A stretch of 64,000 bases of DNA, taken from Pseudoscardovia radai (GTDB taxonomy: Bacteria > Actinomycetota > Actinomycetes > Actinomycetales > Bifidobacteriaceae). Positions 51,500-63,645 of this stretch are shown here, in pieces. The stretch lies in contig NZ_MWWR01000006.1 of NCBI RefSeq assembly GCF_002259605.1, positions 62,001-126,000 on the forward strand, written 5' to 3'. Below the pieces are notes generated by a model. It saw only the letters and a program-made list of their open reading frames with translations, had not been told where the DNA came from and did no database searches. The first letter of the stretch is position 1; every line of letters begins with the position of its first letter. The position numbers and the translations under genes are program-made.

Positions 51500-53587
51500 T
51501 CAGAACGTCACATCCACCCTGTCGCCGCTGAGGGTGAACTCGGTGTTCGTGAACACCACGTTCGTATAGCCGTTCGTCACCGTGTCCCAGCGCCCCTCGT
51601 CGGCCGCCATGTCATGACTCGGGTCCCAGCGGCGCTCGAAGGTGAGCGTCACCTCGGCGCTGCTGGTGGAGAACACGCCGCTGGTGAACGGCTGGTCGGT
51701 CATGTCGCCGGTGGCGTAGTTGCTGCGCGAGTACTGCAGCTGCACCTGCCCGGTGGAGACGGTGGGCGTGCGCGTGATGCTGAAGGCGATGTTGCGGTAG
51801 TCGTAATCCTGGGTGTCCCAGTTGTAGTCGTTGTAGTTGATGGGGCACGTGGAATCCTTGGGCTTGCTCTGGTTCGCGGCCTTGACGCAGGCGTCGAGCT
51901 TGGACTGCGCCTGGCTCTGCAGCTCCACGGCGAGGTCGGTGGCGTTGGCAAGCGACTCCTTGAGCTGCAGCGCCTTGGATTCGCCGGTGGCGCCCTGTGC
52001 GTCGCGGCTTCCTTCCACGATGGTGGTTTCGGTGGAGCCGCTGATGTACTTGGAGCCCGTGTCGCTGATGGTAACCGAGTAGTTGGCCGGATACGCGGCG
52101 AGCACGTAGGCGGTGTAACCGTCGACCTTCTGCAGGTTCTGCGACTGCGCCGCCTGGTAGATGTTCCTGTCGGAGACGGCGACGCCGTTGACCTCGATCT
52201 GCGCGCCGTTGGGCACGTAGACGGTGACGGTGTTGAGCAGCGACTTGCTGATCTTCCACGTCGTGGTCAGCGACACGCGCCCGGCGGGCACCACGGAGAG
52301 GGTGTCGCGGATGTGGTCGCCGGCGAAATCGTAGGAGACGGGGATGGAATAGCCGCCGTTGGAGCTGGACTGTGCCTGCCCCACCTGCACGTTCGTGATG
52401 CGGCTCTGCGACTGCGACGCCACCGCGTCGGCGAGCAGCACGCGCTGGTCCTGCGGCAGGTCGGGGTCGCCTTGGTCCGCGGCCTTGGCGTAGGAGCCGG
52501 CGGCGAGCGAGTTCATATAGTCCTGCACGACGTTGCCCGGGTCGTTGCGCTGCTGGAAGACGGTCCATGCCAGGTAGCCGCCGGTTCCCAACACGATGAG
52601 AAGGGCCGCGATCACGGCGAGGATGACGCCACGATGCGACCTGCGGGGCCGGGCGGCCGCGGCGGCCGGTGTCGGCGCGATGGGTACGGGGGCCGGGGCT
52701 GGCGCGGGGGTCGGGGCGACAGGCGCGGGGGTCGGCGCGGGCTGTGGCATGGGCGGCGCGACGGGGCCGGGCTGCGGCGTCATCGGGGCATACGATGCTC
52801 CCTGCCCCGCGCCGTACAGGGAGGCAGGCGCGGCATTGGCAGGGGCGCCGGGAACGGACGGGGCGCCGTTGGCAGGCGACACGCCGTACGGGGCGGCATA
52901 CGGGGCGCCGTTCTGGGCATACGGAGCGACCGGCGCAGGCGTTGCCGCACCGTTTCCGGACATGGAGGCGACACGCCTGTTTTCCGCGGCGCGTCGCGCC
53001 ACGTCGCCCGGAAGCTCGACGTCGTATCCGGCGTTGTATGCGGCGAGGAACTGCTCCTTGGCCGCGCCGGACGTCTGCGCCAGTCGGCTCAGGTCCTGGC
53101 TGATGAATTCCTGCGACGCAATAACCGGCCTCGTCCCCTGCGACACGCCGGGCTGTGGGGCGACGGGAGCGGCCACCGGGGCGGCCATGGAGGGAGGCAC
53201 CGCGGCACCCCCGGTCATTTGCGGCACGAAACCGGCCTGCTGCTGGGCGAAGGCCTGCTGCGGCGCGGGCTGCGGAGCAACAGGCTGCGGAACGACGAAC
53301 TGCGATGGAACGGGTTGCGCGGCGACGGGCTGCGGAGCGATGCCTTGAACCGGAGCGGCATAGGACGCCCCGTATGGCGCCGCATCGGCGACGGGAACGG
53401 CGCCCTGAATCTGCATCGGAGCGGACTGCATCGGAGCGGACTGCACGGGAGCAGACTGCACGGAGGCGCCAATCACGGTGGGACTATCGTCCGACACGCC
53501 GGGACACGCCTCATACGGGGCGCCGTCCGCGGAGGCGCCCATGGCCGCCCCGTTCACCGTCTCGTCGTACTGTCCGGCGTCGTTCAT
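51500..53587 (-). CDS. membrane protein with Pro/Gln/Ala-rich cytoplasmic half and extracellular domain
   Basis: I do not recognise a characterised family. The 695-residue protein has a disordered cytoplasmic part rich in Ala, Pro and Gln (residues 1-315) interrupted by a compact helical segment (about 156-208, SQEFISQDLSRLAQTSGAAK). A membrane helix follows at about 320-342. The extracellular half begins NDPGNVVQDYMNSLAAGSYAKAADQGD, typical of NTF2-like (DUF4878-like) modules, and continues with repeated beta-rich modules (VPNGAQIEVNGVAVSD) resembling TcaA-type proteins. One cysteine pair (CVKAANQSKPKDSTC) could form a disulfide. Start at 53587 with GAAGGGG upstream. It follows the zinc-ribbon gene by 193 bases and may work with it. 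Confidence 0.8.
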   Translation of the reverse strand: MNDAGQYDETVNGAAMGASADGAPYEACPGVSDDSPTVIGASVQSAPVQSAPMQSAPMQIQGAVPVADAAPYGASYAAPVQGIAPQPVAAQPVPSQFVVPQPVAPQPAPQQAFAQQQAGFVPQMTGGAAVPPSMAAPVAAPVAPQPGVSQGTRPVIASQEFISQDLSRLAQTSGAAKEQFLAAYNAGYDVELPGDVARRAAENRRVASMSGNGAATPAPVAPYAQNGAPYAAPYGVSPANGAPSVPGAPANAAPASLYGAGQGASYAPMTPQPGPVAPPMPQPAPTPAPVAPTPAPAPAPVPIAPTPAAAAARPRRSHRGVILAVIAALLIVLGTGGYLAWTVFQQRNDPGNVVQDYMNSLAAGSYAKAADQGDPDLPQDQRVLLADAVASQSQSRITNVQVGQAQSSSNGGYSIPVSYDFAGDHIRDTLSVVPAGRVSLTTTWKISKSLLNTVTVYVPNGAQIEVNGVAVSDRNIYQAAQSQNLQKVDGYTAYVLAAYPANYSVTISDTGSKYISGSTETTIVEGSRDAQGATGESKALQLKESLANATDLAVELQSQAQSKLDACVKAANQSKPKDSTCPINYNDYNWDTQDYDYRNIAFSITRTPTVSTGQVQLQYSRSNYATGDMTDQPFTSGVFSTSSAEVTLTFERRWDPSHDMAADEGRWDTVTNGYTNVVFTNTEFTLSGDRVDVTF

Positions 53588-53780
53588 CCGGTTCCCCTTC
53601 CTTGCACTCCCGGCCGGGGGCCGCATTCCGTCCACGGCCCCTCACCTACTTCACAGAGCATACACACCGCGCACGCCACGCCGCATACGACGGGGCGCCC
53701 GGAGCCGTAGCCCCGGGCGCCCCAAGCCGTCGATATTGCGGTCGTCGGCTGTTACCCGTCATCCGATGTAATCGGACCGA

Positions 53781-55586
53781 TCAGGCGAGGTTCTGTCCCG
53801 TCGTCCCGGTCGCGGCATGACGCGGCGTGGCCTTCAGCGCATCCTCGCGCGCCTTCAGCGACTTGTCCTGCGGACTGTCGGCGGGAACCGCCGCCAGCGT
53901 GTTGGAGTTGATCAGCTGCTCAGGCGTCGACACGGACGGCTCCTCCGGCATGGCGAGGAAGACCTCGCGCTGGAAGGCCGCGGCCGCCGCCGCATCATGG
54001 TTCGGATCGTCATCGTCGAGCGGTTCGGCCTCGAGCACATGCGCGGCCACGAGCTCCTCCGGCGTCCTGACCATCGGCTCCTCGCGGGACTGCGGAACGA
54101 GAGGCTCGGTCCGCACCACGGTTTCCGTGTTATCAGCGAACGGAGACTGGATGGGCTGCGGCTGCGGCTTGGACTGCGGCTGCGGCTGAACCGGCGTCGG
54201 CGTCGGCTGCGGCTGCGGAGTCGGAGTCGGCTGCGGCCTGGGCTGCGGGTTCGGCCGCGGCGTCGGAGCAGGCTGCGGCTGCGACTGCACCGGAGCCGGA
54301 GTCGGCTGAGGCTGCACCGGAGTTGGCTGCGGCATCGGCTGCGGAGTCGGAGCAGGCTGGAACCTAGGCTGTGGCTGCGGCATCGGCTGGGGCTGGGGCG
54401 CCACGTTCGGCTGCGGAGCGGGTCGCACCGGAGCCGGAGCCGGCATCGGCATCGGCTGCGGCTGAGGCTGCGGTTTGGGCTGCGGAGTCGGCTGAACCGG
54501 AGTCGGAGCAGGCTGGAACCTAGGCTGCGGCTGCGGCGCCACGTTCGGCTGCGGGGCGGGACGCACCGGAGCCGGAGTCGGCTGCGTCTGCGTGCTCGGC
54601 CACTGTACGAGCGGGAAAGATCCGTTCGAGACAGGATTCTGCCGCGGCGTCGGCTGCGGGGTCGGAGTCACCGGCTGCGGACGCACCGCCGGGTTCTGCG
54701 GGATCTGACCGGAGCCAGATGTCATGTTCCCCTGCGTCGTGTTCCCCTGCGTCCGTGCCTGCAGCGGATTGAGCGGCTGCACAGGAGGCGTGGTCGGAGG
54801 AACCGGTCGAGCGGAATTCTGGCTCAGGTTCGGCTTCTGGGTCACCGGCGACGCCGGCACCTGCTGCGTTTTCGCCGCAGGGCGATCATTCTGCACCTGC
54901 GGCGCGGGACCGGGCTGGAATCCCTGCTGATTCTGAGGCGCTGCAGGCTGCTGCGTCGGCTGGGACACGCGCTGCTGGTTCGGAACCTGCTGGTTCGCAG
55001 TCGGCTGGTTCACAGTCGGCGGCACGAACCGCGGCTGCGCAATGTTCTGCTGCGCAGGATTTTGCTGCACAGGACGCTGCTGCGCGGCATTGTTCTGCGC
55101 AACCGGCATCTGAACGGGCTGCGGGAACTGCTGCGGCGTGGGAACACGATTCTGCAAAGGCATCGTCTGCCCATTGGTCGGCTTCATCTGCGCCGCGGCA
55201 TTCGCATAACCCGCTGCGTTCGGGGTCTGCGGGGCAACCGCCGGACGACCGTTCTGCGGCGCGCCGTTCTGGGCAGGCGAAGGATTCACGGGCATCGTAT
55301 TAAGAACCGGACGACCACCCGTCTGAGGCTGCGAAACCTTGTTCGGCACCGTCTGGTTCGGCACGGGCTGGTACGCGGTCGGACGACCGGCGGAACCCTG
55401 GCCCGGCACCACCTGGTTCGTCGCGACGGACGGAGCCGTCGTATTCGGAGCAGACGCCGTTCCTTCGGCCGACGTAGCCGAATGAGCGTTCGGCACATCG
55501 CCGGCAGCCGGCACAGGCTTACCGCAATGCCCGCAGAACTTTCCGCGGGGTGTCAATTCTCCATTGCAATACGGGCACTTTGCCAT
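53781..55586 (-). CDS. zinc-ribbon protein with very long Pro/Gln repeat region
   Basis: The 601-residue protein starts MAKCPYCNGELTPRGKFCGHCGKP, a zinc ribbon with cysteines 4, 7, 18 and 21. Residues about 30-480 are low complexity, changing from Asn/Gln/Pro-rich to an almost regular PQPxPxPxP region with repeated blocks (RPAPQPNVAPQPQP occurs twice). The C-terminal 100 residues are conserved-looking and acidic (RTPEELVAAHVLEAEPLDDDD, STPEQLINSNTLAAVPAD) with two related segments RTPEELVAAHVLEAEP and STPEQLINSNTLAAVP. No membrane segment is present. The start at 55586 has AAGGAGAAGGGA. Function unknown; it shares the layout of signalling scaffolds with a zinc ribbon followed by a disordered arm. 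Confidence 0.82.
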   Translation of the reverse strand: MAKCPYCNGELTPRGKFCGHCGKPVPAAGDVPNAHSATSAEGTASAPNTTAPSVATNQVVPGQGSAGRPTAYQPVPNQTVPNKVSQPQTGGRPVLNTMPVNPSPAQNGAPQNGRPAVAPQTPNAAGYANAAAQMKPTNGQTMPLQNRVPTPQQFPQPVQMPVAQNNAAQQRPVQQNPAQQNIAQPRFVPPTVNQPTANQQVPNQQRVSQPTQQPAAPQNQQGFQPGPAPQVQNDRPAAKTQQVPASPVTQKPNLSQNSARPVPPTTPPVQPLNPLQARTQGNTTQGNMTSGSGQIPQNPAVRPQPVTPTPQPTPRQNPVSNGSFPLVQWPSTQTQPTPAPVRPAPQPNVAPQPQPRFQPAPTPVQPTPQPKPQPQPQPMPMPAPAPVRPAPQPNVAPQPQPMPQPQPRFQPAPTPQPMPQPTPVQPQPTPAPVQSQPQPAPTPRPNPQPRPQPTPTPQPQPTPTPVQPQPQSKPQPQPIQSPFADNTETVVRTEPLVPQSREEPMVRTPEELVAAHVLEAEPLDDDDPNHDAAAAAAFQREVFLAMPEEPSVSTPEQLINSNTLAAVPADSPQDKSLKAREDALKATPRHAATGTTGQNLA

Positions 55587-56234
55587 TCCCTTCTCCTTAT
55601 CACGCGCCATGGTGGGAGGATCCGCATCGATCCGTCGAACCGGCCGGCCCACGTTGGGCCAATCACTCGGAAGACCCGCCGCACCCCCATCATGCCGTGC
55701 GAGAACGGGCGGCCATCCCGTAAAACAACGGACAGCCGTACCGTGTCGCAACGGAGCGGCGGACGCGACGTAGCGAATCGTTGCCTTCATACTATTGCGA
55801 TGCCGCGAAAATCGCACATTCACGCCCAACTCAGGCCGGAATCCCCTCCCCAACCGCCCGAAATCGCGTTAGGCGGGTGCCGCCACACCCGCCGAACGCC
55901 ATCCCAGGCGGAAATCCCCCTCCCGGCCAGACGAAACCGCGTTCAACGGGTGCCACCACACCCGCCGAATGCCATCCCAGGCAGAAAACACCGCCCAGGG
56001 CAGACGAAATCGCGTTAGGCGGGTGCCACCACACCCGCCCAAGCCCAACTCAGGCGGGAATTCCCTTCCCGGCCAGACGAAATCGTGTTCAACGGGTGCC
56101 GCCACACCCGCCGACCGCCATCCCATCCCGGGCAGGAGCAAAACGCCACCGCCGCGGCACGGAAAAGGCGGTACCCGCCCCTCGAAAGAGGTGGATACCG
56201 CCCTGATACCGGCCCCGCGCTAACCGCGCCGCCC
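55587..56234. other. intergenic region between pilO and the zinc-ribbon gene
   Basis: This 648-base gap ends the pilus operon and leads to the zinc-ribbon gene. It holds the four-unit array at 55822-56126 and, nearer pilO, an inverted pair GGCGGTA / TACCGCC with CACCTCTTTCGAGGGG-type sequence (about 56170-56205) that may terminate the pilus transcript. The last 230 bases before the zinc-ribbon gene contain its promoter, not identified with confidence. Confidence 0.6.
55822..56126. repeat. tandem array of four hairpin units, exact 73-bp period
   Basis: GGGTGCC begins the hairpin core at 55875, 55948, 56021 and 56094, exactly 73 bases apart. Units 1 and 3 have the stem GGCGGGTG / CACCCGCC with a six-base loop; units 2 and 4 have CGGGTG / CACCCG preceded by GTTCAA. 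The units therefore alternate, giving a 146-base dimer. Spacers contain CCATCCCAGGC and GGCCAGACGAAA. A partial unit precedes the first one from 55822. Confidence 0.92.
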
Positions 56235-56846
56235 TTACTTCGACGACATCGCCGTCGAGGAAGCGGTCGAGCTCGTCAGCATGGACCACATGGTGGCCTG
56301 GATGGTCAGGGTGGATTCGGTGTCGCCCGGACCGTTCTTGCCGAAGCTGTAGCTCACCGAGTTCGGCACGGCGATGCGCTGCATCTTCTGCAGCTGGCTG
56401 ATGAACGCCTGCATCTGGTCATACGACCCCTGCACGGTGATCGACACGGGCACCTGCACCGGAATGCCGATGCTCAGCTTCGACGTGGTGACGGTAGGCA
56501 GCGACGCAAGCGTCGCCTCGCTGAAGGTGACGCTCTGGATCGTGACCTGCGCGCCCGCGGCGACGGTGTTCAGCGAATCGATGAAATCCTGCTGGTTGTA
56601 GGCGCCAGGAATCTCGGTCTGCATCTGGGCGAGTCGGCTCAGCTGGATCGACTGCTGCGGCTGGAGAATCGTGAGGTTCGCGATCTCGTCGCGCAGCTTC
56701 GCGTTCTTCGCCTCCACCGTCGCGGTCTGCTGGTCGGCCGACTCGATGTCGCTTTTCTTCGGCGTCACCACGGCGCCGACGGTGCCCAGAATCAGCAGGA
56801 TGGCCAGCACGACCAGCCCGAGGGCCTGCCACTTGTACTTGTTCAT
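56235..56846 (-). CDS. pilO: PilO-like type IV pilus inner-membrane alignment protein
   Basis: This 203-residue protein has a short cytoplasmic N-terminus, one membrane helix (about residues 6-28), a coiled coil (SADQQTATVEAKNAKLRDEIANL) and a ferredoxin-like external domain (VQVPVSITVQGSYDQMQAFISQLQKMQRI). These are the features of PilO, which pairs with PilN to link the cytoplasmic motor complex to the outside. It is the last gene of the pilus operon, 54 bases after pilN. Sequence conservation in this family is low, so the call depends on topology and neighbours. Confidence 0.82.
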   Translation of the reverse strand: MNKYKWQALGLVVLAILLILGTVGAVVTPKKSDIESADQQTATVEAKNAKLRDEIANLTILQPQQSIQLSRLAQMQTEIPGAYNQQDFIDSLNTVAAGAQVTIQSVTFSEATLASLPTVTTSKLSIGIPVQVPVSITVQGSYDQMQAFISQLQKMQRIAVPNSVSYSFGKNGPGDTESTLTIQATMWSMLTSSTASSTAMSSK

Positions 56847-56900: not shown

Positions 56901-57908
56901 TCACTCGCTGTCCGAGGACCCGCTCGTCGACGCCGTCGACGTGGACGTCGTGCTCAGGCCGGCCGCCTCGGATTCGAGCGACTCGCGCATCGTGGCAAGG
57001 AGCTGGCGCTTGCTGTCGTCGGCACCAGCGGAGTTGTCGCTGCGCTCGGTCGTGTTCCTGGACTGGCTGCCGTCGGCGTTGTCCACGATGAGGTGGAGGG
57101 TCACGCTTCCGGTGTAGGTGTAGCCGGCGTCGCTGCCGCCCGTAATGGACGTGAGCGAGCCGTTGATGTAGCCGGTGACTCCCTCGAAGTTGGCGATGAA
57201 ATCGTGGGCCTTGATGAAGTCGGGGTCGGTGACGGTGAAGTCGACGGTGATGACGCCGCCGTTGCTCCACACGGTACCGGCGGTCGATGACGCCGACGAG
57301 CCCTTGCCCGTAGCGGAGGCGAGCTGGTACTCGGAGAAGTCAAGCGACTCGTACTTGCCGTTGGCCGGCAGCGCGGAGTTGAACTCGCCCGCCACCTTGT
57401 TCCAGTCGACCTCGTTGTACAGAACGCCGATCTTGACGAGCTGCTCGTCGTCCACGGAGTTGAGGGTGTCCTCGACGTCCTTGAACTGGGCCTTCTTCTG
57501 CACGAGCTGCGTGTACTGGTCCTGCGCCGCGGTGGTACGCTTGTCAGCCTGGTTCACGAGCACGCTCATGAGCACGATGGCCGCGATGCACAGCGCCGCC
57601 ACCACCATGTCGACCACCACGAGCCCGTTGCGCACCACGCGGTCGTGGTTGCGGCGCACGACGGAGCGCGGGATGAGCTCTGCCCTGAAGTTCCAGTCCT
57701 TCGGATTGGAGGTGGTGGCCACCTTGGCCTTGGCGAAGGGGTGACGGAAGTCGAAGCCCTGCTTCTTGACGGTGGTCTTGCCCTCGCCGGCTCCCTCGGG
57801 ATTCTGCCCTTCCTCGGAATCGACGGGCGGCATCGCCGCGGTCTGGGAGAGCGCGGATCCGTCATGCTCGCCGCGCGGCTTTGCGTTCTTCTTTCCAAAC
57901 AGACTCAT
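56901..57908 (-). CDS. pilN: PilN-like type IV pilus assembly protein
   Basis: This 335-residue bitopic protein has a cytoplasmic N-terminus of about 95 residues that includes the segment WNFRAELIPRSVVRRNHDR (like the PilN motif INLLP that binds PilM). A membrane helix spans about 96-118, with a coiled coil to about 150 and an external domain (ITVDFTVTDPDFIKAHDFIANFEGV). The C-terminal 40 residues are Ser/Thr rich. It overlaps pilM by ATGA, as expected for partners. The cytoplasmic extension is longer than in Gram-negative PilN. Confidence 0.82.
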   Translation of the reverse strand: MSLFGKKNAKPRGEHDGSALSQTAAMPPVDSEEGQNPEGAGEGKTTVKKQGFDFRHPFAKAKVATTSNPKDWNFRAELIPRSVVRRNHDRVVRNGLVVVDMVVAALCIAAIVLMSVLVNQADKRTTAAQDQYTQLVQKKAQFKDVEDTLNSVDDEQLVKIGVLYNEVDWNKVAGEFNSALPANGKYESLDFSEYQLASATGKGSSASSTAGTVWSNGGVITVDFTVTDPDFIKAHDFIANFEGVTGYINGSLTSITGGSDAGYTYTGSVTLHLIVDNADGSQSRNTTERSDNSAGADDSKRQLLATMRESLESEAAGLSTTSTSTASTSGSSDSE

Positions 57909-58957
57909 TGCGGCCTCTTTCCAAGTGCCAGGCCGAGCACGGCCGCGTAATCGGCGGCGTGGGCGGCGATGTTCTGATTCGTGACGTCCTTCGACAGCGA
58001 GAAGTTGCGGAAGGGGTCTCCCAGACGGACGACCTTGTTCGTCGAGCTTGCGAGCACGGCGGGGAAACCGCCGAGCGTGGCGCCGATGCCCGTGAGCAGG
58101 ATGGTCTGCACGGTATCGTCGGGATGCTCGTTGTCGTAGTAGTTGATGGTGTTGCGCACGCCGACGATGAGCTGGGCCACGGTCTCGCGGATCACGGCCT
58201 CGGCCTTCTCGAGCTTCTCGTCGCCGACCACGTTCTGCAGGCCGATGCGGCGCTTGATCTGGATGGCGTTGTCCCTCGGGATGCTCAGCGCATCGACGAT
58301 GGCGTCGATGACATCGTTATCACCGGCGGTTACGGTTCGCACGTACTGCGGATGCGCGTTGTCCATGATGATGACGTCGGTGTTGCTGGAGCCGACGTTC
58401 ACGATGGCCTGCACCCTGTTCACGCTGGAGCTGGCGAACACGCGCGCGAGGCAGAACGGCGCGGCGTCGATGGTCTCGAGCACGAAGCCCGCCTTCTCGA
58501 TCACCTCGGCCATGCTCTCCAGGCCGGCGCGCAGCGTGGCCACGATCAGCCCGTGCAGGATGGTTCCCTGGCTCGTGCGCTCCTTCGACAGCGGCACGAA
58601 GTCGAGGATGGACTGGTCCACCGGAAGCGGAATCAGGCCCTCGGCCTGGAACGGCAGCGTCTCGCGCAGCTCGTCCAGCGCCATGTCGGGGAAGTTCGCC
58701 TCGCGCAGCACCAGACGGCGGCTGGCGTAGGCCAGGGCCGTGTGCTCGGTGGGATACCGGTGGCGCGTGATGAGGTTGCCGATCAGTTTGGTCACGTTTT
58801 CCTTGGCGTCGTCCACGATCTCGCCATCGACCACCGCGCCCGCCGGCAGCGGCACCATATGGAAGTGCTGCACCTTGGGTTTGGAGGAATAAGGGTTTTC
58901 GATGACGGCCGCACGAACGGCATCATTCGACAACATCAATGTCGTGATTTGGCTCAT
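57905..58957 (-). CDS. pilM: PilM, actin-like type IV pilus assembly ATPase
   Basis: PilM is a cytoplasmic actin-fold protein that binds the N-terminus of PilN and connects the pilus motor to the alignment complex. The 350-residue protein has the FtsA/PilM features: DMALDELRETLPFQAEGLIP, IVNVGSSNTDVIIMD (phosphate loop), and ILLTGIGATLGGFPAVL (adenosine motif). Start at 58957 with AAGGGAGTGC upstream. It overlaps pilN. Confidence 0.92.
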   Translation of the reverse strand: MSQITTLMLSNDAVRAAVIENPYSSKPKVQHFHMVPLPAGAVVDGEIVDDAKENVTKLIGNLITRHRYPTEHTALAYASRRLVLREANFPDMALDELRETLPFQAEGLIPLPVDQSILDFVPLSKERTSQGTILHGLIVATLRAGLESMAEVIEKAGFVLETIDAAPFCLARVFASSSVNRVQAIVNVGSSNTDVIIMDNAHPQYVRTVTAGDNDVIDAIVDALSIPRDNAIQIKRRIGLQNVVGDEKLEKAEAVIRETVAQLIVGVRNTINYYDNEHPDDTVQTILLTGIGATLGGFPAVLASSTNKVVRLGDPFRNFSLSKDVTNQNIAAHAADYAAVLGLALGKRPQ

Positions 58958-58993
58958 GAGCACTCCCTTGCTAGTTTCTCTCCCATGCCGGGC

Positions 58994-59806
58994 TCACATG
59001 AGCCCGACGACGTGTAGATACAGGTCGGCGATGACCTGACCGGCGAAAACGCCGATCCAAGACCCCACGACCATGGAGGGACCGAAGGGAATCCCGCCCT
59101 TGGCCGTGACCTTCTTACGTGTTATTTGTACCAGTGCGGCAAGACCTCCGACGACGAAGGCCAGGAACGCGCCGATGATGAACTGCTTCCACCCCAGCCA
59201 TCCGAGGGTCATGCCGAGCAGGAAGGCGAACTTGATGTCGCCGTCGCCCATGCCGCCTGGCCGGATGATGCTGAGGACGAAGTAGAAGGCGAACAGGATG
59301 AGCGCGCCGATGTACGCGCGTCCGTACGCCGGCCAGGCGTCCGTCATGCCGGATGCGAGCGCGAGAAGCACGGCGCTGACGATGACGGAGGGGTACACGA
59401 TGACATTGAGGATCAGATGGTGATCGATGTCGATGTACGCCACGATGATGCTGATCGCCGCGAGGTACAGCAGGTCGGGCAGCATCCACCACGTGTACAG
59501 GCCTCCGACGGCCCCGCCGACGACGCCCGCCATGGCCAGGCCCGTGAGGGCCTCGATAACCGGGTAGCGCACGGAGATATGCTCCTTGCAGTGCCGGCAT
59601 GTGCCTCCGAGCACGGCGTAGGACACAAGCGGGATGTTGTCATACCACGCAATCTGCGCGTTGCAGTTCGGACAAAAGCTGCGCTTGGGGTTGACGATGC
59701 TCATGTGGTTCGGCACGCGCCAGATGACGACGCCGAGGAACGATCCGAGGAAGCAACCCAGTATGAAGGTCACGACCTCGAGAAGAACGATGCTTGTGGT
59801 ATCCAT
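58994..59806 (-). CDS. pilD: prepilin peptidase / N-methyltransferase
   Basis: PilD cleaves the leader of prepilins in the membrane and methylates the new N-terminus. The 270-residue protein has the N-terminal methyltransferase loop with zinc cysteines C45, C48, C70 and C73 (CPNC, CRHC) and eight membrane segments. The aspartyl protease pair lies in AYIDIDHH (about D126/D128) and GMGDGDIKFAF (about D188/D190). The start at 59806 has AAGGTGAGG upstream. Confidence 0.95.
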   Translation of the reverse strand: MDTTSIVLLEVVTFILGCFLGSFLGVVIWRVPNHMSIVNPKRSFCPNCNAQIAWYDNIPLVSYAVLGGTCRHCKEHISVRYPVIEALTGLAMAGVVGGAVGGLYTWWMLPDLLYLAAISIIVAYIDIDHHLILNVIVYPSVIVSAVLLALASGMTDAWPAYGRAYIGALILFAFYFVLSIIRPGGMGDGDIKFAFLLGMTLGWLGWKQFIIGAFLAFVVGGLAALVQITRKKVTAKGGIPFGPSMVVGSWIGVFAGQVIADLYLHVVGLM

Positions 59807-59888: not shown

Positions 59889-62384
59889 TCATCCCTTCGT
59901 GGCGCGCACAAGGGAATAGCCCTTGGACGCCGACACGGAGGTGTCGAGCGCGAAGGACGTCGACGATGTCTCCACGTAGTGCTTGTACTTGCCCTGTTCG
60001 GAAGCCGGGGCGTTCCATGTCTGCTGCGTGGACTTCAGCGTGGTGCGGCCGAAGAGGTCCTTAGAGGACGGCGTGGCGGCCTCGCACTTCTGCAGCGTGA
60101 CGTAGGGGAACATCTGCGGATACTGGCTCACATTGCGGTCGGTGCCGTTTGTGCCGAACTTCCACCCGGTGAAGGTGTCGGTTTCCTCGAGACACAGGGC
60201 GCCGGCGTTCTTCGAGTCGTCCTTCAGGGCCTCGGCCAGACGGTCGGGGTCCGAGGCCACGGTCTGCGTGGCGGAGTCGAGGCTGCTCAGGAGAACGAAC
60301 TTGTAATCGAAGCGGCCCGAGCTGGCGCCGTCGGCGGACAGCTTCTCGGTGCGCACGAACTGGTATGTCGGATCGGACACCGTGGAGCAGCCCCTCGTCG
60401 TGGCCTTGAGCAGCGCGCCCGGGGACGCGGCGTCCACCTTGAGGCAACCCAGCGTCGAGGAGATCTTGGCCTTGTAGGCGAGCTTCGTGGTGTCGATGGT
60501 GCCGTCGGCGTTCGTCGGGCGGTCATACGTCATCATGTCGTACTTGGTGCCGCTCGTATCCGTCTTCGTGCCGCACACGACGTTGGACGTTCCGTCGGAC
60601 GACTGGCCGCTGATCATCTGCTTGTAGCAGAACGAGGTGATGGGCGCGGCGTTGACATAGCACTGCTTCGTCACGACGTTCTGTGTGTTCCACTGGAAGC
60701 TGCTCACGGCACGCGCCTGCATGCAGGCTCCTGTGTTGCTCACGATCTGGCTGGTGGTGTAACCGGCCTCGCCGCCGTTTCCGAGCGACTGGAGGTAGGT
60801 TCGTTCGTTATCCTTGTCAAGCCAGCCGGTGGATGTGACCTGGCCCCACTTGCCGGCCGTGACATAGCATCCGTCGGTCGCGACCGCGGGGTCGAGGTCC
60901 GATCCACAGCCACCGTGGTTGGACCACACGTTGTCCTTGGTCGGATAGAGTCCTTCGAAACGCGTGTCGTGCGCCATGGCACCTGTGGCCAGCGCCTGGC
61001 CGGGGTTGCTGTAGGCGGCGTTGATGAAGCCGAAGTAGAACGACCATTTCTGCAGTTTGTTCAGGGCGCTGTTGGCATCGGCGAGCTCGGCGGCGGTGTC
61101 ATAGCCGTAGTTGCCGGAGGCGATGTCCACCTTGCTGCCGTTCCACGTGCCGGAGAATTCGCTCGGCGAGTAGCTCGTGCCGCATGTTCTCAGCGTCACA
61201 TGGGCCGGAGCCGACGCATCCGGGTCCAGACCCGTGATGCACAGATCGGAGCCGGCCAGCCTGATCGTGTCGTCGGACGCGTAGCTCCACGCATTGTACT
61301 TGGAGTACACCGTGTTATTGGCCTGGCACATCGGGTTGTAGTTGTAGGTCACGGTGTTGCCGTCGCCCTTGACCGAACCGGGTGCGAACCACGCGCGCTT
61401 GAAGATGCGCACTGTCCAGCCCTCGGCGGGCACGGCCGTGCCGGTGGTGTCGACGTTGCCCGACGGGTCGGCCGCCACAAGGCAGGTCTCGTCGGCGGGG
61501 TCGTCGATGTAGTTGCCCTCGCCGTTGGTCAGATGCTCGGACGCGTGTTCGATCCATGTGCCCGTCACGGTGGCGGTGTCACCGTCGGCGGTCAGCGTCG
61601 AGCCAGTCACATGGAGCCATGCGTGCTGCGAGGCGCCCTGCTCGTTGTCATAGAAGGTGAACGAACCGTCGGTGGAGCCGTTTCCCGCCCAACTGCTGGA
61701 TATCCTGGTCGTTTTCCCCAGGCTGGCGAACTGGTACACGCCCTGCTCGGCCAGGATGGGGTCGCCGGTGGTCGTCGAGGAATCGAAGCACTTCGCGGTC
61801 ACGAGGGCATAGCGCGTCTTCGCCATATCCGCCAAGGTTGTCACCTGGTTCGCCGTTCTCGCGCCGGAGGCGTCGGTGGCGGTGGGATCGCCGTCCCAGT
61901 ACGTCACGTCCACACTCACGGTGACGGCGCCGCTGGAGTAATCGTCGGCGGAGGACGCGGTGCCCGTGCCGTTGATGCGCGTGCACGTGTTCGTCTTGTT
62001 ATCGGACTGCGACGAGTACACGCAGGTCAGCAGCACCGAGCCGTCCGACTGCACCACGAAATCGCTTGCGGATGTGGACGACGCCGGCATGTAGGGGTCG
62101 TACGACTTCTTGTCCACGGCCTGGGCGGAGGCGGAGCGCATGAAGCTCAGGCCGAGCTCGAGCCCGCTTTCCGCGGCGTAACGCGACTGCTGCGTGCGGC
62201 GGTCGGAGCTGTAGGGCACGGCCTGCCCCACGAGCACCGAGGTGATGATGGCCAGGGTGAGGATGACCATCGTGGTGAACAGCAGCGCCATGATCATGGC
62301 GGCACCGGTCTCGCCATGCGCCCTTTTGCGGATGCGGGCGCCCCACTGGCGTTCTACATAGGTCCACAACTGTGTGTTCCTCAT
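59889..62384 (-). CDS. PilX-like minor pilin / adhesin with R-type lectin-like repeats
   Basis: This 831-residue protein lies inside the pilus operon between pilC and pilD. The N-terminus (GETGAAMIMALLFTTMVILTL, residues 24-44) is like PilX_N-type minor pilin starts, with one hydrophobic helix that packs into the pilus. The rest is extracellular. Several cysteine pairs have ricin B-like wording: LCITGLDPD to LRTC (382-401), ACMQARAV to TKQC (554-575), GCLKVDAASPG to TRGC (647-666) and LCLEETDTF to LQKC (731-767) followed by QQTW at 787-790. This suggests one or two beta-trefoil lectin domains, i.e. a sugar-binding tip protein. The lectin reading is an inference. The ATG at 62384 follows GGGAGGG by 11 bases. 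Confidence 0.8.
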   Translation of the reverse strand: MRNTQLWTYVERQWGARIRKRAHGETGAAMIMALLFTTMVILTLAIITSVLVGQAVPYSSDRRTQQSRYAAESGLELGLSFMRSASAQAVDKKSYDPYMPASSTSASDFVVQSDGSVLLTCVYSSQSDNKTNTCTRINGTGTASSADDYSSGAVTVSVDVTYWDGDPTATDASGARTANQVTTLADMAKTRYALVTAKCFDSSTTTGDPILAEQGVYQFASLGKTTRISSSWAGNGSTDGSFTFYDNEQGASQHAWLHVTGSTLTADGDTATVTGTWIEHASEHLTNGEGNYIDDPADETCLVAADPSGNVDTTGTAVPAEGWTVRIFKRAWFAPGSVKGDGNTVTYNYNPMCQANNTVYSKYNAWSYASDDTIRLAGSDLCITGLDPDASAPAHVTLRTCGTSYSPSEFSGTWNGSKVDIASGNYGYDTAAELADANSALNKLQKWSFYFGFINAAYSNPGQALATGAMAHDTRFEGLYPTKDNVWSNHGGCGSDLDPAVATDGCYVTAGKWGQVTSTGWLDKDNERTYLQSLGNGGEAGYTTSQIVSNTGACMQARAVSSFQWNTQNVVTKQCYVNAAPITSFCYKQMISGQSSDGTSNVVCGTKTDTSGTKYDMMTYDRPTNADGTIDTTKLAYKAKISSTLGCLKVDAASPGALLKATTRGCSTVSDPTYQFVRTEKLSADGASSGRFDYKFVLLSSLDSATQTVASDPDRLAEALKDDSKNAGALCLEETDTFTGWKFGTNGTDRNVSQYPQMFPYVTLQKCEAATPSSKDLFGRTTLKSTQQTWNAPASEQGKYKHYVETSSTSFALDTSVSASKGYSLVRATKG

Positions 62385-62403: not shown

Positions 62404-63645
62404 TCACATGTTGTTGATGGCGTCGTACATGGAGAACATAGGCATGTACAGGGCCAAGACCATGAAGCCGACGACGCAGCCGAGCAGAAGGATCATGATC
62501 GGCTCGAGCAGCGAGGTCAGCGACTTCGCCATGGCCTGCACCTCCTCGTCATACGCCTTGCCGGCGCTGGCGAGCATCTGGTCGATGGCGCCGGCGTCCT
62601 CGCCGATGGCCACCATCTGCACGAGCATGTTCGGGAACACGCTCTGCAGGGCCATGGCGTCGGAGAGCCTGGTGCCCTTCTCCACCTCGCGCGCCACGAA
62701 CTTCGACGCGCTCTCGTACACGATGTTGCCGGACGTGGAGCCGACGATGTCCAGCGCTTCGAGGATCGGCACGCCCGAGGAGAGCATGGACGAGAAGTTA
62801 CGGCAGAAGCGGGCGAGAGCCACCTTGTTGGTCAGCTTGCCGAACACCGGGACCTTGAGCTTGAACGGCTCCCACCACTGGCGGATGTACATCTTGTTGC
62901 TGTGCGAGCGCCAGTAGATGGTGAACGCGACGATGCCCACGATGAGCAACGGGATGGCCACCGGCGCGACGTTACCCATGCTCACAAGCGTCTGGGTGAT
63001 CGCCGGGAGCTTGGCTCCCATGGAATCGTACATGTCCTTGAAGGTCGGGACGATGGTCAGGAGCATGACGCCCACAAGGAGGAAGGCGATGCACAGGACG
63101 ACGATCGGGTAGGCCAGCGCGGACTTGATCTGCTGCTGGAGCCTGACGTCGGCCTCGAAGGAGTCGGCAACGGTGAGAAGGGCGCCGTCAAGGAAGCCGC
63201 CCGCCTCGCCGGCGCGCACCATATGCACCATGATGGGCGGGAAGAGCTCGTCCTCGTTATGCTCCATGGCCTCGGAGAACGACATGCCGTTCTCCACGTC
63301 GGAGACGCATTGGTGCAGGGCGTCGCGCAGGCGCTTGTTCTCCACCTGCTCGGTGACGATGTTCAGGGAGCGCACAAGCGGCACGCCGGCGGCCACCATG
63401 GTGGCGAGCTGGCGGGCCATGACGGCGTAGTCCTTCTTCTTGGGGTATTTGCCGCCGCCGAGGTTGATCTCCATGTCGAGACCGCTGGCATCGGCGGAGT
63501 TCTTGAGATCGGTGGGCAGAATCCCCTGGCGCTTCAGGCGGTCGATCGCCTGGCTGCGGCCGGTGGCCTCGATGTCGCCGCTGACCTTCTGCGAATTCTG
63601 GATGCCCTTGTAATGCCATACGGTGCTTACCGCTTCGTCTGCCAT
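62404..63645 (-). CDS. pilC: PilC, type IV pilus inner-membrane platform protein
   Basis: PilC (GspF family) is the membrane platform that works with the assembly ATPase. The 413-residue protein has an N-terminal cytoplasmic strand region (WHYKGIQNSQKVSGDIEATGRSQAIDRLKRQGI) with the two T2SF domains (ARQLATMVAAGVPLVRSL and ARFCRNFSSMLSSGVPILEAL) and three membrane helices. Length matches the family. A TACAAT -10-like element (63751-63756, minus strand) lies about 105 bases upstream, so a promoter between the pilin and pilC is possible. Confidence 0.95.
   Translation of the reverse strand: MADEAVSTVWHYKGIQNSQKVSGDIEATGRSQAIDRLKRQGILPTDLKNSADASGLDMEINLGGGKYPKKKDYAVMARQLATMVAAGVPLVRSLNIVTEQVENKRLRDALHQCVSDVENGMSFSEAMEHNEDELFPPIMVHMVRAGEAGGFLDGALLTVADSFEADVRLQQQIKSALAYPIVVLCIAFLLVGVMLLTIVPTFKDMYDSMGAKLPAITQTLVSMGNVAPVAIPLLIVGIVAFTIYWRSHSNKMYIRQWWEPFKLKVPVFGKLTNKVALARFCRNFSSMLSSGVPILEALDIVGSTSGNIVYESASKFVAREVEKGTRLSDAMALQSVFPNMLVQMVAIGEDAGAIDQMLASAGKAYDEEVQAMAKSLTSLLEPIMILLLGCVVGFMVLALYMPMFSMYDAINNM

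Follow-up and report, generated by a model that had tools for sequence, protein, structure and literature searches.

The locus described here raises the question of what a large minor pilin with ricin-type cysteine repeats contributes to a type IV pilus, and what it might bind there. An earlier note on this DNA had proposed that the protein forms a sugar-binding pilus tip for adhesion to mucin or milk glycans. We have therefore analyzed the pilus locus, the homologues of the protein within the Bifidobacteriaceae, and its relatives in other actinobacteria.

Pilus locus and distribution

The window, by which we mean the whole stretch of 64,000 nucleotides that was analyzed, comes from Pseudoscardovia radai (contig NZ_MWWR01000006.1, positions 62,001 to 126,000 of the forward strand). 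The protein is encoded, at the length of 831 residues given previously, by one ORF, pilX, whose minus-strand orientation the earlier note did not give. This gene is flanked by pilC and pilD, with pilM, pilN and pilO beyond pilD:

62404-63645, minus strand: pilC, platform protein (T2SSF, E 5.3e-65)
59889-62384, minus strand: pilX, putative large K-type (PilX/GspK-like) modular pilin, 831 residues (single ORF, ATG start)
58994-59806, minus strand: pilD, prepilin peptidase (A24_N_bact and Peptidase_A24)
57905-58963, minus strand: pilM (PilM_2, E 1.1e-34; TIGR01175 above its cut-off)
56901-57908, minus strand: pilN, assigned by position alone from the conserved order pilM-pilN-pilO (no domain match)
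56235-56846, minus strand: pilO (PilO, E 4.5e-11)

A 927-residue ORF antisense to pilX was rejected as a frame artefact, as the conserved frame is that of the minus strand. Upstream, outside the window, are pilB, pilT, two major pilins and three minor pilins; the type IVa pilus (T4aP) locus is thus complete, with pilB, pilT, pilC, pilD, pilM, pilN (by position only), pilO and pilins, and relatives share its gene order.

A PilX homologue occurs in 16 of 189 Bifidobacteriaceae genomes, and PilM scores above its cut-off in exactly the same 16. One of the relatives is from P. suis, of the same genus. This strict co-occurrence implies that pilX is a regular part of the pilus and not an accessory gene. 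Together with the complete locus and the prepilin N-terminus described below, it bears out the proposal that the protein is a pilus component. A search of viral contigs and plasmids found no relatives.

A recent study (PMC13091076) annotates a T4aP locus including pilX in 13 Bifidobacterium species, with the same eleven gene names as the P. radai locus, and lists pilX as a pseudopilin gene. That pilX and the P. radai gene, which comes from Pseudoscardovia, very probably belong to the same family; the available text of that study describes the Bifidobacterium pilX without mention of a lectin module. One Bifidobacterium relative (genome G062; L018, 1321-3189, and L040) has a decayed pilus locus, in which pilC and the minor pilins were undetected and pilM has an internal TAG. 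Its lectin ORF opens with the signal peptide of another pilin (GQRGFTLVEVIVAT), as if a deletion had fused two genes. This locus resembles the non-functional, degenerate locus of B. minimum reported in the same study (PMC13091076).

Some other genes of the region have unusual compositions. The pilT-like ATPase (L031, 13409-16753, outside the window) has, from its predicted start, a charged N-terminal extension of about 740 residues ahead of the T2SSE domain, with a high content of Ala, Gln and Glu. Directly downstream of pilO, at 53781-55673 of the window (minus strand), is a gene whose product starts with a zinc-ribbon-like segment and is otherwise extremely rich in Pro and Gln, and at 51500-53635 (minus strand) is a Pro/Ala/Gln-rich membrane protein with a weak C-terminal match of Rv0361 type.

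Domain organization and the N-terminal pilin module

The domain structure of PilX is listed below; repeats are numbered from the N-terminal end of the head.

62304-62384, minus strand: basic leader peptide, residues 1-27, ending in Gly27, the predicted PilD cleavage site (sequence and alignment A1)
61719-62303, minus strand: hydrophobic helix and pilin module, residues 28-222 (hhalign with actinobacterial PilX-like pilins)
60762-61520, minus strand: putative first beta-trefoil, residues 289-541 (sub-threshold Ricin_B_lectin, A1 profile against PDB, hhalign)
61326-61484, minus strand: lectin repeat 1, C301-C353 (invariant cysteines)
61044-61241, minus strand: lectin repeat 2, LCITG C382-C401 and QKW 445-447 (invariant; includes the Pfam stretch 362-404)
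59985-60761, minus strand: putative second beta-trefoil, residues 542-800, repeats 4, 5 and 6, with QQTWNAP near the end (hhalign)
60660-60725, minus strand: lectin repeat 4, ACMQ C554-C575 (invariant cysteines; 0 of 40 shuffles reach its score)
60387-60446, minus strand: lectin repeat 5, the weakest, GCLK C647-C666 (position between repeats 4 and 6)
60084-60194, minus strand: lectin repeat 6, LCLEE C731-C767 (C731 invariant; 0 of 40 shuffles reach its score)
60015-60026, minus strand: QQTW motif 787-790 of repeat 6 (W790 and N791 invariant; WNAP common to the actinobacterial relatives)

Alignment A1 comprises 16 PilX homologues of 26-54% identity. The prepilin motif GETG27/AAMIMALLF, with its predicted cleavage site, is kept in 15 of its 16 rows, the exception being the fused N-terminus of L018. 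At position 5 of the predicted mature protein there is a Met (M32) and not a Glu; Glu5 is absent from all intact PilX homologues and present in the other three minor pilins encoded there. The absence of Glu5 is a trait of PilX and GspK pilins, which are assigned to the tip (PMC7541494). The family models match weakly and below their cut-offs (PilX_N, E 0.8 and 10.2 of 25.5 bits; GspK, E 0.008 and 15.7 of 130 bits), and the K-type assignment therefore rests on the absent Glu5, the location of the gene and its published annotation as pilX. P. radai PilX shares with these minor (pseudo)pilins the N-terminal prepilin region, the missing Glu5 and a place in the pil locus; it differs from them in its weak family scores and in the head of about 500 residues that it carries atop the pilin module. 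The missing Glu5 suggests a tip position, and by analogy we think it likely that P. radai PilX is located there.

Cysteine and QxW pattern of the head

The four cysteine pairs noticed previously are all present, as LC382...C401 (19 residues apart), AC554MQ...C575 (21), GC647LK...C666 (19) and LC731LEE...C767 (36), and so is the QQTW motif, at residues 787-790. To these we can add two features overlooked before, a fifth cysteine pair (C301...C353) and another QxW motif (QKW, 445-447). Across the 16 homologues, C301, C353, C382, C401, C554, C575, C586, C604 and C731 are invariant, as are Q445, W447, W790 and N791, and C767 and Q788 come close to invariance. The weakest pair is C647/C666, of which at least one cysteine is absent in eight Bifidobacterium-type homologues, a ninth being unaligned there. 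Invariant positions consist mainly of cysteines, aromatic residues and glycines; their density is highest in head repeats 1, 2 and 4 and lower in the pilin module. Judged by this conservation, the cysteine/QxW pattern is real and under selection, and not a product of chance.

Relationship to R-type lectins

R-type (ricin-B/CBM13) repeats are about 50 residues long and contain two cysteines and a QxW motif apiece (PMC11212257). In P. radai PilX the Pfam model Ricin_B_lectin matches residues 362-404 with an E value of 0.034 and 14.7 bits, short of the gathering score of 29; it matches 5 of the 16 members of A1, the best of them L017 (E 9.1e-5, 23.1 bits). Searching the PDB by phmmer with P. radai PilX alone gave a sole match, a chance one to a dirigent protein, and when the A1 profile was used R-type lectins made up five of the seven best matches, at E values of just 0.09-0.85.

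The relationship becomes clear through relatives found in a class-level search, which identified PilX-like pilins encoded in the pilus loci of other actinobacteria. Five of these (L041, L042, L043, L029 and L030) make up the set A3. Three class-level homologues that were scanned contain Ricin_B_lectin with E values of 3.2e-15 to 1.6e-11 (44.9-56.8 bits), and the A3 profile matches plant R-type lectins with an E value of 1.9e-6. Twelve lectin cysteines, arranged as six pairs, are present in these relatives and correspond to two beta-trefoils, and the two halves of the lectin pilins are similar to each other. Comparison of the bifidobacterial family with the actinobacterial PilX-like pilins by hhalign gave an E value of 1.2e-26 over residues 10-402, which comprise the pilin module and repeats 1 and 2. 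Repeats 1 and 2 without the pilin module still scored 41.0 against the relatives (shuffled maximum 17.8). The C-terminal half scored 45.6 against the second lectin half of A3 (shuffled maximum 19.7, reversed control 14.6) and 50.8 against 13 relatives (shuffled maximum 19.8). Taken singly, repeats 1, 2, 4 and 6 outscore every shuffle, and repeat 5 lacks significance (9 of 40 shuffles reach its score). Within the bifidobacterial family, a test for internal repeats gave no more than a marginal result (score 22.5, shuffled maximum 22.0).

By these alignments PilX is a modular type IV pilin, consisting of a pilin module and an extra C-terminal domain homologous to the Ricin_B_lectin pilins. The likeness to R-type lectin subdomains suggested by the earlier note is thus upheld as one of ancestry, by way of relatives with significant Ricin_B_lectin domains, and we have very high confidence in the R-type ancestry of the head. 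AlphaFold models, built from three sequences only, were uninformative on the fold and count neither for nor against a trefoil, both for the full-length protein (pLDDT 36.7) and for the second lectin half alone (pLDDT 36.4); the beta-trefoil fold is accordingly derived from homology, and on that basis it is very likely. In the putative first trefoil, repeats 1 and 2 are clear, repeat 3 is diverged and unclear, and an insertion precedes QKW. Compared with Ricin-B/CBM13 domains (PF00652), P. radai PilX is similar in its two-cysteine repeats (five of them with cysteine pairs), in its QxW motifs and in a profile that matches plant R-type lectins. It differs in its sub-gathering score, in having QxW in repeats 2 and 6 only, in the large insertions that set its repeats far apart and in lacking the ligand Asp.

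Actinobacterial relatives and the sugar site

The A3-type pilins are shorter, at about 505-600 residues. Like P. radai PilX they have pilD, pilM and minor pilins as neighbours (where the contig allows), a pilin start without Glu5, the same order of lectin repeats and a WNAP end. They differ in having six complete cysteine pairs and the motif Cys-x-Asp, whereas P. radai PilX is longer, diverged and without that Asp. The Asp two residues past the first Cys is the classical ligand residue of ricin B. Among the actinobacterial relatives, almost every copy of repeats 1 and 4 has this Asp, as do most copies of repeat 2 (CMDA, CLDA, CLDV). The corresponding motifs in repeats 1, 2, 4, 5 and 6 of P. 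radai PilX are CLV, CIT, CMQ, CLK and CLE, with Val, Thr, Gln, Lys and Glu in place of Asp, and the Thr of repeat 2 (Thr384) is invariant in the 16 homologues. Since Asp is lost from every mapped repeat, the canonical sugar site is not conserved in PilX. The head may use another site or another ligand, or it may be structural; that it binds some glycan is, in our rough judgement, a matter of even chances.

Two further PilX-like pilins from other actinobacterial pilus loci (L044, 3430-5583, and L045, 4714-6135) have heads that by eye lack the lectin-type cysteine pattern. The head at the PilX position thus seems exchangeable.

Comparison with known modular pilins

Modular pilins are already known, including one that binds glycans with a concanavalin A-like module (PMC8179133, PMC9934059). 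The latter, S. sanguinis PilC, is, like PilX, a large minor pilin of a monoderm type IV pilus with a C-terminal lectin module, predicted to be at the tip (PMC9934059). Its glycan binding has been demonstrated, and its likeness to P. radai PilX is one of architecture. The two differ in that PilC has a concanavalin A-like module and the typical Glu5, whereas PilX has an R-type-derived module and no Glu5. A full-text literature search of partial coverage found no paper describing an R-type lectin module on a pilin. One apparent hit for a pilin with a beta-trefoil (PMC8325347) was set aside, as it concerns c-di-GMP control in Rubrobacter and mentions the trefoil merely as a folding example.

Possible functions of PilX

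The gene, its locus, the homology of its pilin and lectin parts and the strict linkage to the pilus are direct observations. From the sequence comparisons we propose, as the probable reading, that PilX is the minor pilin at the K position, or tip, of a type IVa pilus able to retract, with a head from two tandem R-type beta-trefoils displayed as a ligand-contacting module. PilD would cleave off the 27-residue leader, and the hydrophobic helix would place PilX in the pilus-initiating complex beside the other minor pilins. Lacking Glu5, PilX would occupy the very tip, and the head of about 500 residues, derived from two tandem R-type (ricin-B/CBM13) trefoils, would be shown there as the ligand-contacting module. 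Any glycan that it bound would be held at a site other than the canonical Cys-x-Asp galactose site of ricin.

The loss of the canonical Asp from all mapped repeats, with the invariant CxT of repeat 2, could instead mean that the trefoil head is folded but has lost sugar binding, and that its role is to cap the initiating complex or to span the cell wall, being needed for assembly and not for adhesion. Such a structural cap would fit the fact that all T4aP loci of the family conserve the head, and also the fold-typical nature of most invariant positions. We nevertheless consider it rather unlikely: these positions are densest in head repeats 1, 2 and 4 and not in the pilin module, the unrelated heads of L044 and L045 imply that a trefoil is unnecessary for assembly in general, and S. 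sanguinis PilC shows that a pilin with a lectin head can bind glycans (PMC9934059). It is highly improbable that the head is an unrelated disulfide-rich pilin domain with an LC...C pattern that arose by chance; the sub-threshold Pfam score and the failed structure predictions would agree with this, but both halves are homologous in register to Ricin_B_lectin pilins, well above the reversed and shuffled controls.

If the head does bind a glycan, the binding of mucin or milk glycans put forward in the earlier note finds some encouragement in its lectin ancestry, in the origin of P. radai DSM 24742 from the digestive tract of a wild pig (PMC5540593), and in the primate, bovine and porcine hosts of T4aP bifidobacteria (PMC13091076). 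The claim is unsupported by our results and we regard it as improbable: the canonical Asp is replaced, there is no evidence of specificity, and the lectin pilin is no optional adhesin, as it occurs in all T4aP loci found in the family. In addition, those relatives that have the canonical site are members of other families, and some have genomes of 8-9 Mb, so that the module is not specific to gut hosts. Dietary polysaccharide is another candidate, whereby the head would hold starch or plant polysaccharide and retraction would pull cells along or towards it. R-type modules are the CBM13 modules of polysaccharide-active enzymes (PMC11212257), and PMC13091076 reports starch-dependent spreading in locus-bearing B. 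adolescentis strains, which gave interstitial halos only with starch, a locus-free strain giving none. Here too the probability seems low to us: starch is the preferred carbon source of B. adolescentis and growth can explain the halos, the phenotype comes from a comparison of strains without single-gene mutants, and starch binding by the head is hypothetical. A fuller scenario, to which we give little credence, is that the Bifidobacteriaceae rebuilt an ancestral actinobacterial lectin pilin: insertions would have enlarged it, its classical sugar site would have disappeared, and it would have come to bind a new ligand (such as starch or another polysaccharide), becoming a tip that couples substrate contact to retraction and movement.

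Implications

Bifidobacteria have long been regarded as non-motile. A 2026 study ties their T4aP locus to twitching-like spreading on starch (PMC13091076). To recognize PilX as a putative lectin-derived tip subunit would offer a tangible lead on what the pilus contacts, and a connection of surface contact, polysaccharide and movement that can be tested. It would also extend the idea of the modular pilin to an R-type lectin head common to several actinobacterial families.
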